Below, one piece after another: positions 5,891-61,014 of a stretch of DNA of 64,000 bases. A model generated the notes under the pieces. It had not been told where the DNA came from and made no database searches. It was given only the letters and a program-made list of their open reading frames with translations. Every line of letters begins with the position of its first letter. Position 1 is the first letter of the stretch. Source of the stretch: an uncultured bacterium (GTDB lineage Bacteria > Verrucomicrobiota > Kiritimatiellia > CAIVKH01); the NCBI GenBank assembly GCA_903906425.1, contig CAIVKH010000001.1, positions 1 to 64,000 on the forward strand, read 5' to 3'. A program made the position numbers and the translations under genes.

Positions 5891-6526
5891 TTACGGCAGT
5901 TCTTCGATCAGGATTTTGCGGTACTGGACTTTCGTGTACGCGCCGCCGTGGATTTGCAGGCCCAATTTTCCGCGCGTCGGAATATTCTGCTCGGTTTCGG
6001 CGTAGTCCGCGGTCTTTCCGCCGTTGAGCCATTCCTCGATGTGGCCTCCTTGTGCGCGAATCTGGTATTCATTCCAATCGCCGGCCGTCACCAGCTTCTT
6101 CTGAAGCCTCTTCGACGGCATTTGAAGAACCTTCTTTCGCCGCATTTCATCATAGAGGCCGCCGTAGTAGTCCTCGCCAATGTCGGCCTGATAGCCGATC
6201 ATTTCGAAGCTGTTTGTGATGCGCTGCGACCAGAATTGCACTCCGCCGTTGACGAAACCATTCGTGCCCTCGAGTTTGAACTGAAGGCGCAGATGAAAAT
6301 TATGAAACTCCTGCGTCGTCACCAGAAAATCATTGCGCGGCTGTAGGCGATTAATCCACCCGGCCACGATCGCGCCGTTCTCGACCCGCCAGAGGTTCGT
6401 ATTGCCCTCCCAGCCCGCGAGCGTCTCGCCATCGAACAATTTCTTCTCGGCCGCGAAACTTTCCAATGGTTGGAAAAATGCCGCCGCCAGAATTCCAATG
6501 ATTGGAAGCACCGTTCTCATTTTCAT
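5891..6526 (-). CDS. Secreted DUF1080 (3-keto-disaccharide hydrolase family) protein; signal peptide encoded by array 3
   Basis: MKMRTVLPIIGILAAAFFQPLESFAAEKKLFDGETLAGWEGNTNLW...VNGGVQFWSQRI; start at cat 6524-6526. Confidence 0.85.
   Translation of the reverse strand: MKMRTVLPIIGILAAAFFQPLESFAAEKKLFDGETLAGWEGNTNLWRVENGAIVAGWINRLQPRNDFLVTTQEFHNFHLRLQFKLEGTNGFVNGGVQFWSQRITNSFEMIGYQADIGEDYYGGLYDEMRRKKVLQMPSKRLQKKLVTAGDWNEYQIRAQGGHIEEWLNGGKTADYAETEQNIPTRGKLGLQIHGGAYTKVQYRKILIEELP
6461..6507. repeat. Paired-palindrome array 3 (2 copies, 32-bp phase), inside signal-peptide coding sequence
   Basis: ttccaatggttggaa 6461-6475 (1 mismatch) and ttccaatgattggaa 6493-6507. Confidence 0.97.
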
Positions 6527-6543
6527 ATTTCTCCTTTTGTCGC

Positions 6544-7707
6544 TCACTTGATTTCCACGCGCCCGGTCTCTTCCGTCGCGACGACCGCGCCGAGATCCTT
6601 GTCGCCTTCCGAGACGATCCAGACGTGGCCGGGAAACGTGGCCAACAATTCCGAAAGCCTGGGCCGGATGTCTGCATAATGCTTTCGCTTCCCGTCGAAA
6701 TCCAGCCAGTACACGGAAACGACCTTGTCGCGCCGGTTGATGAAATTGATGCCGCTGGCCTTGCCGCTTTCGCGCGGCGATGCCGGCGGAATTTTGTCGG
6801 CCGGCAGCCACGCCAGCGCCTCGCCCTGCTTGTCGAGCCGCGGCGCTTCCTTCGGCCATTGAAAGGGCGCGAACTTTGCGACGTCGAGCCCGGCAAGATG
6901 CGCGCGCTCCGATTCGGGCCGTTTCGCGGGCCGCTGGTAGCGCCATGGCCGTTCGCCATAAACTTCCGTCAGCAACTTCGCGAGGTCGGGATCGTACGGT
7001 TTCAATTTGTCGCGCGTGTCAATCGGCCCGTGGTCGTTGTCGTTCGCGCGGTTCGTGTCGAACCACGACTGCGTGCCCTCGGCCCAATATTCCATGCGGT
7101 TCTGCATCGCATAGGTTCCCTTCCAAAGCCCGTTGGTCTTCGCGTGCTGGTAGGCCGCCTTGAGCCGCCCGTCGAACGTCGGGTCTACGGTGCACATGCC
7201 CATCTCGTGAATCGCGTGGGCGAACTCGTGGATCAAAATATTCTCCTGCCAGTACGGGTCGCCCGGCAGGCACAGCAGATTTTCCTCCGCGCAACTCACG
7301 GCCGGCCGCGCCACCGTCGCGCCGAGGCCGCGCGCGCGGCGGTTCCAGTATTTTGCCGGCGTCAGGTCGCTGTGCTCCGGAATATCCGTCGTCATCTCCG
7401 TCGAAGCCATCACGACGAGGCGTACGTTGTTCTTCGCCATCGCGCGCAGAATTTCCGGCCGGTAATTTCCGATCTCCTGTCGGATCAGATAGGCGGCCTC
7501 CAGCACCGCGAAATCCGAAACCTTCGCCGACGCGACCACCGGGAAGCTCTCGACGAGCACGCACTTCGTGTAATTCGTCGCCAGCTTGAACACCGCGATA
7601 ATTTCCGGGGATGGCCGCGCGATCCGCTCCTGCGCGGAAGTTTCCAATGATTGGAAAACCATCGCGGCGCAACTTCCAATGATTGGAAAAAATCGCTTCA
7701 TGCTCAT
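6544..7707 (-). CDS. Secreted putative zinc metallopeptidase-like protein (HEFAH motif)
   Basis: MSMKRFFPIIGSCAAMVFQSLETSAQ leader; ILIHEFAHAIHEMG (HExxH). ATGA overlap with upstream gene. Confidence 0.7.
   Translation of the reverse strand: MSMKRFFPIIGSCAAMVFQSLETSAQERIARPSPEIIAVFKLATNYTKCVLVESFPVVASAKVSDFAVLEAAYLIRQEIGNYRPEILRAMAKNNVRLVVMASTEMTTDIPEHSDLTPAKYWNRRARGLGATVARPAVSCAEENLLCLPGDPYWQENILIHEFAHAIHEMGMCTVDPTFDGRLKAAYQHAKTNGLWKGTYAMQNRMEYWAEGTQSWFDTNRANDNDHGPIDTRDKLKPYDPDLAKLLTEVYGERPWRYQRPAKRPESERAHLAGLDVAKFAPFQWPKEAPRLDKQGEALAWLPADKIPPASPRESGKASGINFINRRDKVVSVYWLDFDGKRKHYADIRPRLSELLATFPGHVWIVSEGDKDLGAVVATEETGRVEIK
7642..7688. repeat. Paired-palindrome array 4 (2 copies, 32-bp phase), inside signal-peptide coding sequence
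   Basis: ttccaatgattggaa 7642-7656 and 7674-7688. Confidence 0.98.
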
Positions 7708-10964: not shown

Positions 10965-11011
10965 TTCCAATGATTGGAAATTGCCGCGACCGCCTTTTCC
11001 AATCATTGGAA
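10965..11011. repeat. Paired-palindrome array 5 (2 copies, 32-bp phase)
   Basis: ttccaatgattggaa 10965-10979; ttccaatcattggaa 10997-11011; divergent intergenic region. Confidence 0.98.
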
Positions 11012-19661: not shown

Positions 19662-19708
19662 TTCCAATCATTGGAAAATCCCGCGGCGCAAACTTCCAAT
19701 GATTGGAA
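19662..19708. repeat. Paired-palindrome array 7 (2 copies, 32-bp phase) filling the 49-bp convergent gap
   Basis: ttccaatcattggaa 19662-19676; ttccaatgattggaa 19694-19708; flanking stops at 19660 (+) and 19710 (-). Confidence 0.98.
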
Positions 19709-45957: not shown

Positions 45958-46068
45958 GTCCAATCATTGGAAGAAATTGCCGCGGCAGTTTCCAATGATT
46001 GGAAAAAGCCATCGTGAAATTTGCCAATGATTGGAAATTGCGAAGCCGCATTCTTCCAATGATTGGAA
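45958..46068. repeat. Palindrome array 16 (4 copies, exact 32-bp phase)
   Basis: gtccaatcattggaa 45958-45972; ttccaatgattggaa 45990-46004; tgccaatgattggaa 46022-46036; ttccaatgattggaa 46054-46068. Confidence 0.98.
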
Positions 46069-58692: not shown

Positions 58693-61014
58693 TCACGGGC
58701 GAACGCCAACGGGCGGCGCGCCGGACCAGCCAAAGCTGGTAATGTTGGTCGTATTGTTGAGGCTCGACAGAATGTTCCAGGTGCCGGTACTGAGCCGGTA
58801 GGTCGCAAAGTCGGCTTTGCCATCGCCGTCGTAGTCGCCAGAAATCGGAATGGTGGCGTTGCCTCCGAAGACGCGGTCAATGAACACGCCCGTGCTGCCG
58901 GAAACATACCAGTGACCGGCGATGGTGTCGCAGACGGCGATGTCGGCCTTGTGATCGCCGTCGTAGTCGGCGGGAACGGGAGTGAAGCCGAGGCCGCCGA
59001 ATTGCGACTGGGTGAATCCCGCGGAACTGCGGAGGATGTACCACATGCTGTTCGCCGGATCGAACACGGCAACGTCAGCCTTGCCGTCGCCGTCGTAGTC
59101 GGCGGGAACGGGGATCGAAGCCGAGTAACCGAACTGATAATTCGTGTAGCCAAGTGAACTGCGGAAGATGTGCCACAGGCCGGAGGCGGGCTCGAAAACG
59201 CCCAGGTCGGTTTTCCCGTCGCCGTCGTAATCGGCGGGAACGGGAATCGTGCCGCTGTGGCCAAACTGCGTGAAGTGATATCCCGTCTTGGTGCCGAACC
59301 AGTACCACAGGCCGGAGGGAGGATCGTAATAGGCCGCGTCGGTTTTGCCGTCGCCATCGAAATCGGCGACGACGGGAATGACGCCGGAATATCCGAAATG
59401 AAATGTCTGAAAGCCCGCCGTGCTCTTGAAGAGGAACCAGGTGGAGTCCGAGGATTGGTAGGTATTCAGATCGGCTTTGCCGTCGCCGTCATAATCGCGC
59501 TTGGTGGGGAAATTCAGTAGGGTGAGCGGAGCGCCTGGAGTCAGCCACTGCTTCACGATCGGCCATGATTTGTCGAAGCGGCCGAAGTCGTCGAGGCCGC
59601 TTTGATTCCAGCAATAGGATGTTCCGCCATAGAGCTGGCCGAGGAATTGATGAGCGGGATTGAACAGCGGACTGCCGCTGCTGCCTTTTTCCGTCACGCC
59701 GCTATACCATTGCACGCCCCAGAAATTCGGGTCCTGCGCGCCGGACAGGTTTCCAAAGCTGATGCGCGTCCACGATCCGTTCGGATGATGGACGACGGTG
59801 AGCGTATCGCTGTTGGCGGGCGTGGCCGTGGACCAGCCGGCCAGAAAGGTTCCCGCCGGCGGCTGTTGGACGAGGCGCATGAAACTGAAATCATTTGCCT
59901 GCTGATATGTCGCGCCTGCCAGATACGTTCCGCCGCCGGTGGTGGTCGGCACGGTGCTGAGACTCGGCGGCGTTCCATTGCACGCGGACGTTTGATCGAG
60001 CCAGTAGAACTCGACCGTGCTGGCGATGGTCTGGTCGCCGACGCAGTGATTCGCCGTCATGAAATATGTGTTGGCATCCGACGGATCGCTGTCCGCCAGC
60101 AGGCAGCCCGTGCAAAGATATTGGGCGCCCTGATCAACAAGCGTGATTAACGCAACTGCCGCGGCTTCGTTCGACCACGCGGGGTAACAATTCACATCGT
60201 TCTCGCAGAACTGCGCGCCAGCCTGGCTGGACGAAGCGCGCACATAGGTGTGCCCGATCTGCCGCACCGCGAAAGAAACCTCACGCGGCGAAACGCTCGG
60301 CGGCAGCGAGCACTCCAGCGTCAAGTCCGACGCCCAGATGGACTCGGCCCAGAACCGCGGCGCCGCCGCAAGTTCCGCCTTCGAATATGGCCCGCGCCGT
60401 TGCGCCGGATTCCCAGTTTGAAAAACGATGAACTGCGCCCCAGCCGGCACGCTGGCATTTTCGATGGCCACGCGGACAGCCTCCGCTCCACTCGAACTCA
60501 ATCGCAGCGTATAAACCCATCCTCCGTCGCTCGTCGGCATCCACAGCGACGAGCCGTTCACCACAACCGGCGATGGCAGGTCGCGAACAATTCCAATACG
60601 GCGCGCGCGCGGCTGCTTTGCCACGGAGTTCAGGGCGTCTTCGCGCAAGATCGCCGTCAGGTCCGGCGCCGCCAGCACCACGGCCTCGCTCGGTTGAACG
60701 ATCCGCTCGCGCACCGAAACCGGTTCCGGAACCGTGCGCTGCTGCGTTATCGCCGCCGGCCGACCGGCCATGGGCCGCGCCACATTCTGCCAACGCTTCT
60801 GGTGTGCCGTCTCGAACGCGGCCGGCAGCCGCGTCCCATTTGCGAAGGTGTACTCCGTGGATTCGACCCCGTCCGCGCCGGCAACCTGCCGCCCGTTCAC
60901 CACGCAGTTGCTCCCGTTCACAAAAACCGATTCCTGCCACTGGTGAAGCACGCCCGCGGAAGCCGCGGTGGAAAGAGCGATGGCAATGAATGCGGCGAAC
61001 GACACAGTTTTCAT
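58693..61014 (-). CDS. Secreted trypsin-like protease with C-terminal FG-GAP/VCBS-like DYDGDGKAD repeats
   Basis: FMTANHCVGD, NDFSFMRL, GSSGSPLFN triad-like motifs; six or more DYDGDGKAD-type repeats at roughly 47-50 aa intervals. Confidence 0.88.
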   Translation of the reverse strand: MKTVSFAAFIAIALSTAASAGVLHQWQESVFVNGSNCVVNGRQVAGADGVESTEYTFANGTRLPAAFETAHQKRWQNVARPMAGRPAAITQQRTVPEPVSVRERIVQPSEAVVLAAPDLTAILREDALNSVAKQPRARRIGIVRDLPSPVVVNGSSLWMPTSDGGWVYTLRLSSSGAEAVRVAIENASVPAGAQFIVFQTGNPAQRRGPYSKAELAAAPRFWAESIWASDLTLECSLPPSVSPREVSFAVRQIGHTYVRASSSQAGAQFCENDVNCYPAWSNEAAAVALITLVDQGAQYLCTGCLLADSDPSDANTYFMTANHCVGDQTIASTVEFYWLDQTSACNGTPPSLSTVPTTTGGGTYLAGATYQQANDFSFMRLVQQPPAGTFLAGWSTATPANSDTLTVVHHPNGSWTRISFGNLSGAQDPNFWGVQWYSGVTEKGSSGSPLFNPAHQFLGQLYGGTSYCWNQSGLDDFGRFDKSWPIVKQWLTPGAPLTLLNFPTKRDYDGDGKADLNTYQSSDSTWFLFKSTAGFQTFHFGYSGVIPVVADFDGDGKTDAAYYDPPSGLWYWFGTKTGYHFTQFGHSGTIPVPADYDGDGKTDLGVFEPASGLWHIFRSSLGYTNYQFGYSASIPVPADYDGDGKADVAVFDPANSMWYILRSSAGFTQSQFGGLGFTPVPADYDGDHKADIAVCDTIAGHWYVSGSTGVFIDRVFGGNATIPISGDYDGDGKADFATYRLSTGTWNILSSLNNTTNITSFGWSGAPPVGVRP

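Follow-up and report, generated by a model that had tools for sequence, protein, structure and literature searches.

The locus described here raises the question of how two copies of a palindrome that normally lies between genes come to be translated as part of the secretion signal of a conserved enzyme. It is found in a 64,000-nucleotide stretch of DNA from an uncultured bacterium of the class Kiritimatiellia (hereafter, the window), in which the gene and its leader show the following features:

5891 to 6526, minus strand: PF06439 (formerly DUF1080) gene, encoding a predicted exported protein of the 3-keto-disaccharide hydrolase family, 211 aa (profile match and sequence).
6461 to 6475, minus strand: palindrome copy TTCCAATGGTTGGAA, with one mismatch, read as FQPLE (pattern scan and translation).
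6476 to 6492, minus strand: 17-bp spacer coding for most of ILAAAF (hydropathy comparison).
6493 to 6507, minus strand: palindrome copy TTCCAATGATTGGAA, exact, read as PIIG (pattern scan and translation).
6452 to 6526, minus strand: predicted Sec signal peptide MKMRTVLPIIGILAAAFFQPLESFA, with the cleavage site placed by rule (rule-based score).
6531 to 6536, minus strand: Shine-Dalgarno-like AAGGAG, 4 nt before the ATG (sequence).

The two near-identical copies of the palindrome TTCCAATSATTGGAA (6461-6475 and 6493-6507), 32 bp apart, lie in the N-terminus of the DUF1080 protein, as the original prediction held. Translated on the minus strand from the ATG at 6526, the leader reads MKMRTVL-PIIG-ILAAAF-FQPLE-SFA-AEKKLFDG, within MKMRTVLPIIGILAAAFFQPLESFAAEKK. 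Since a spacing of 32 leaves a remainder of 2 when divided by 3, both copies are indeed read in different frames, and the mismatch in the copy at 6461 does cause the proposed Ser-to-Pro change, by converting TCA into CCA. A G-centred copy of the palindrome in this same frame would give TGA, a stop codon.

A translation start downstream of the array, which would have contradicted the original prediction, is ruled out. Inspection of the reading frame revealed no ATG between the leader array and the PF06439 domain, whose match (E=2.9e-36) starts at residue 27 of the 210-aa query, equivalent to residue 28 of the complete protein, and therefore translation must start upstream and run through the array. 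The only potential starts between the first copy of the array and the domain are TTG codons lacking a Shine-Dalgarno sequence, while AAAGGAGAAAT, directly 5' of the ATG at 6526 on the minus strand, is a good one. The leader exhibits the basic n-region, the core of at least eight hydrophobic residues and the small residues at -3 and -1 that define Sec-type signals; its rule-based score is 2.79, S-F-A precedes AEKK, and the hydropathy of its spacer is 2.75, compared to an average of -1.15 when other arrays are read in that frame. The leader is presumably cleaved and the protein exported.

The same arrangement is found in the next gene upstream, and other arrays of the window occupy a variety of positions:

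About 6544 to 7701/7707, minus strand: VHL beta domain gene (domain C-terminal, E=4.6e-9); the second array lies in its leader, MKRFFPIIGSCAAMVFQSLETSA (profile match).
7642 to 7688, minus strand: second array, both copies exact, read as PIIG-SCAAMV-FQSLE in that leader (pattern scan and translation).
10965 to 11011, no strand: typical intergenic array, between divergent genes (pattern scan and gene context).
19662 to 19708, no strand: array between convergent genes (pattern scan and gene context).
45958 to 46068, no strand: four-copy array with 32-bp steps (pattern scan).

The bacterial VHL beta domain protein (6544-~7707, minus strand) is likewise predicted to be exported. The window also includes tandem repeats, namely imperfect 132-bp (44-aa) units at 58797-59498, inside a called gene on the minus strand (58693-61014), and three 39-bp copies, 90-97% identical, at 1264-1380, just past the 3' end of the minus-strand gene 1391-2545.

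The palindrome belongs to an abundant family. In the window, TTCCAATSATTGGAA occurs in 34 exact copies and 11 with one mismatch, almost all of them in groups of two to four spaced by 32-33 bp, and the draft genome (6.66 Mb) contains 2,777 exact palindromes. Shuffled windows yielded none to set against these 45 copies with at most one mismatch, and the reversed-pattern control of the genome also gave zero, which excludes chance. Relaxed pairs of the form TTCCA-N5-TGGAA-N16/17-TTCCA-N5-TGGAA number 1,225 in the genome. The statistics on array placement, leaders and genes refer to 1.31 of the 6.66 Mb, a fifth of the genome, where 358 arrays were found (274 of them pairs), with spacings of 32 (n=326), 33 (n=59) and 31 bp (n=7). 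Arrays hold two to five copies and occur about once per 3 kb; their 17-bp spacers and flanks share AT edges and a CG core in the consensus, with no fixed sequence. A CRISPR was considered and rejected from the layout, as CRISPRs are clusters in which many identical repeats alternate with spacers of ~25-40 bp, and not short arrays dispersed every 3 kb or so with 17-bp spacers. No match to the array was found in Rfam, and text searches of the open-access literature (subscription papers falling outside their scope) yielded no paper naming the motif.

Most arrays are not translated. Among 293 classifiable multi-copy arrays in the 1.31 Mb, 259 are intergenic and 34 genic; in an earlier subset, 180 of 203 were intergenic, against ~26 expected under random placement. 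Arrays occupy 62% of the divergent, 63% of the convergent and 46% of the codirectional gaps of at least 60 bp, and occupation of all three kinds indicates that they are specific neither for promoters nor for terminators. These gaps depend on genes called by a simple codon-usage script, with approximate starts, which missed the leader at 7642. Arrays in codirectional gaps lie close to the upstream stop codon (median 31 nt) and each palindrome copy can fold as an RNA hairpin, both of which would be expected if the copies acted in mRNA, as hairpins governing termination or decay at the borders of genes. We consider this explanation improbable, because divergent gaps, which contain no transcript end, are as occupied as convergent ones, the flank consensus shows no U-tract, Rfam offers no counterpart, and a fixed spacing of 31-33 bp is not expected of independent hairpins. 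Along the chromosome, arrays are spaced more evenly than by random choice of gaps (CV 0.47 vs 0.67, sd 0.04), although this null ignores operon structure, which may explain part of the difference.

The use of arrays as export signals is nevertheless recurrent. Twelve of the 329 multi-copy arrays in the 1.31 Mb are translated in N-terminal leaders. Seven of them form or border the hydrophobic core (window 6461, window 7642, L048 17778, L059 5776, L079 3099, L140 15301 and L142 6451), while the remaining five are located in an extended n-region before an ordinary core (L050 13164, L058 5087, L058 7449, L079 8927 and L087 6281). Their products include sulfatase, GH53, GH95 and GH38-like enzymes, an esterase, a TPR protein, SCO1/SenC, a cytochrome c lipoprotein, and PF06439 and VHL-domain proteins; two have no Pfam match, and most of those with a match are members of families whose proteins are typically exported.

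Several of the tests applied to these leaders were designed after examples had been seen, and the leader set itself was drawn up with the data in view; the frame contingency test depends least on how the set was chosen. In this test, every multi-copy array was read on both strands and in three frames, and a frame was counted if an ATG lay no more than 45 nt away and the peptide running through the array resembled a signal peptide, as scored by a simple hydropathy rule. This was the case for 9 of the 192 frames that extend into a gene, compared to 3 of 1,782 other frames (Fisher p=1e-7). In the eight leaders that use the PIIG frame, picked by eye according to position and with three hydrophilic spacers retained, the six spacer residues have a mean hydropathy of 1.44, versus -1.15 for 357 further arrays that can be read in this frame without a stop (p=5e-5).

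The DNA of these leaders is not explained by the peptide alone. The palindromes contain CCA, GGA, CAA, TCA and TTG, all of them codons that this genome uses sparingly. Given the peptide and the codon usage of the genome, the exact codons of the palindrome would be expected with a probability of 1.7e-6. The rare codons kept in the palindromes point to a constraint at the DNA level, and common descent of the arrays could contribute to the pattern. These data also bear on whether the export signal is the function of the array, selected because it makes good leaders. The hydrophobic spacers are what such selection would produce, but leaders hold only 12 of the 329 multi-copy arrays, 5 of these 12 lie before an ordinary core, and the rare codons are kept exactly; together with the intergenic majority, this makes it very improbable that the arrays exist for export. 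Thus, the proposal that the element serves as the hydrophobic core of a secretion signal stands as regards the twelve leaders and their fitting spacers, and is not supported as an account of the element itself: with ~90% of arrays intergenic, next to genes in all orientations, service as a signal peptide is a secondary role confined to a minority of them.

The position of the leader arrays suggests how this use arises. Ten of the 11 same-strand leader arrays are at junctions of at most 33 nt, as opposed to 42% of signal-peptide genes (p=0.0015), and such junctions cannot hold a 47-bp pair. Genic arrays other than those in leaders are also more frequent at gene ends (0.063 per kb, five arrays at each end) than in the interior (0.014 per kb). 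This fits a boundary element displaced into the nearest permissive codons.

Whether the pair was inserted into the DUF1080 gene or arose in place can be addressed with its orthologues. Those of G032 and G031, with 57% identity, hold array-free leaders (MNIRALLAVLVLPELFAMSVVCAAEQ-PLFDG and MKLWGWLLLGTATAQAAQ-PLFDG), as do those from Chthoniobacter and Pedobacter; in G031, a four-copy array begins right after the stop codon of the orthologue. Comparison with array-free orthologues, called for in the original prediction, thus reveals a leader of the same kind, but with a different sequence. The number of residues before LFDG is 29 here, ~19 in G031, ~27 in G032 and ~24-28 in the clear named cases, so that the leader is longer by 2 to 10 residues and not clearly by ~16. 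Insertion of the array within this leader, as had been suggested, is therefore not borne out; a full 16-residue insertion is not visible, a point that the range of lengths leaves soft. As the orthologues have ordinary leaders of similar length, the array occupies a signal peptide that already existed and did not create one.

Other genic arrays provide examples of both kinds. Exact arrays in two conserved cytosolic proteins, Ffh (L049:11618-11664) and UDP-glucose dehydrogenase (L067:9583-9629), leave the local length unchanged with respect to solved homologues, and the pair can therefore arise in coding sequence by substitution. A NuoF-like protein (L132:219-264) carries a ~21-residue insertion at the array, between the conserved GRGGAGFPTGFKW and NGDEGDPGAFMDR, and TrpF has about 13 extra residues at its array; a purely in-place origin does not explain these two. 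Exact pairs might arise in place through selection of point mutations or through short-patch conversion.

In an alternative reading, the array is a miniature mobile element (MITE, REP or RPE-like), a selfish pair that inserts copies, sometimes in frame, with signal peptides as a permissive target. Support for this comes from the insertion in the NuoF-like protein, from the palindromic elements known in frame in Rickettsia genes (PMC3767692), and from copy numbers that are much larger in one lineage, with 2,777 exact copies in this genome versus 0-23 in relatives of the same family, the nearest genomes compared belonging to other genera. A moving unit, however, would carry its spacer, with conserved length and interior, and the spacers here are unconserved beyond their AT edges and GC core. 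Ffh and UDP-glucose dehydrogenase, unlike the NuoF-like protein, show replaced residues without an insertion, the DUF1080 leader lacks a clear 16-residue excess, and the centres of the palindromes differ between lineages while half-sites and spacing remain constant. Moreover, RAYT-type Y1_Tnp genes do not track the arrays, with 4 of them in this genome and 21 in a relative that has no arrays, and the best Y1_Tnp gene of this genome has no array in its 3.3-kb locus. A mobile origin is, on balance, unlikely.

Known repeats share some of these features. Repeat-derived signal peptides have a precedent in Yersinia, where the YPAL/RU-2 element, a mobile element of ~168 bp, is fused so as to form part of the predicted signal peptide of YPO1552 and is believed to have given rise to a new exported protein (Delihas review, PMC2229807). 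In both cases a mainly intergenic repeat supplies part of a predicted signal peptide; the 47-bp pair described here, in contrast, repeatedly occupies existing signal peptides of conserved enzymes. Rickettsia palindromic elements (RPE), insertions of 100-150 bp (PMC3767692), are likewise found in frame inside conserved genes, unlike the intragenic copies without length change and the free spacer observed here. REP elements and BIMEs are also short, clustered, mainly extragenic palindromes of high copy number, but REPs are defined by a GTAG/CGTC tetranucleotide at one end (PMC3733652). This tag is absent from the flank consensus of the arrays, which in addition have a fixed spacing of 31-33 bp and no observed association with transposases.

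The distribution of the array among relatives is restricted to one class. The exact motif is present in 72 of 347 genomes of the class, and the relaxed TTCCA-N5-TGGAA pair in 48 of 390 genomes of the phylum, all 48 from this class, with zero control matches. Half-sites and the 31-32-bp spacing are common to the class, and the centre varies by lineage, being AATSATT here, AAGSCTT-like in family f9 and ACACCGT-like in f12. Two f9 genomes (G031 and G030) have hundreds of pairs with the AAGSCTT-like centre. Rarer spacings of 22, 52, 62-66, 83 and 96 bp fit multiples of the helical repeat (10.5-bp phasing), and those of 64 bp may be arrays missing the middle copy. In ten other genomes, none of 23 arrays was genic, a number too small for a conclusion, and a search for the putative binder among genes beside arrays in low-copy genomes found no family twice, only unrelated genes.

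Judged from DNA patterns, this distribution of half-sites, centres and spacing suggests paired protein-binding dyads; conserved dyad, helical phasing and gene-independent placement are all present. We therefore favour, as the probable explanation, that the pair is a putative binding site for a dimeric protein, normally intergenic and tolerated in signal peptides where genes are packed. Two dyads about three helical turns apart lie on the same face of the DNA, and would be bound by a dimeric protein whose recognition has perhaps co-changed with the array centre in each lineage. Pairs would be set along the whole chromosome, normally between genes and about one per 3 kb, and would presumably serve in chromosome organisation or general regulation. 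Where packed operons offer no intergenic room, some pairs would fall within the opening codons of the gene that follows. A signal peptide would tolerate them because one of the possible readings of the pair, PIIG-x6-FQSLE, carries no charge other than a single Glu, and because the unconstrained 17-bp spacer could evolve to complete a hydrophobic core. Two constraints would thereby act on the stretch, one on the DNA, which keeps the palindromes with their rare codons, and one on the protein, which keeps the spacer hydrophobic.

Chromosome-wide protein-binding palindromes include matS and the ParB/Noc sites. Like them, the arrays consist of short, exact dyads that are scattered over the chromosome largely irrespective of individual genes; they differ in sequence, in pairing at three helical turns, in their thousands of copies and in that binding is here putative. 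More tentatively, and as something possible rather than probable, the paired TTCCA-N5-TGGAA dyads could be a class-specific, previously undescribed chromosome-organising site, whose centres and putative binder co-evolve by lineage, and which is needed so often that selection writes it into coding sequence, preferentially signal peptides, where intergenic DNA is missing.

An apparently unnamed site, with thousands of copies in one genome and presence in many genomes of one class, would thus offer many natural examples of bacterial DNA in which two legible constraints, a dyad and a hydrophobic core, fall on a single stretch, and its leaders would show how much of another code a signal peptide is able to absorb.
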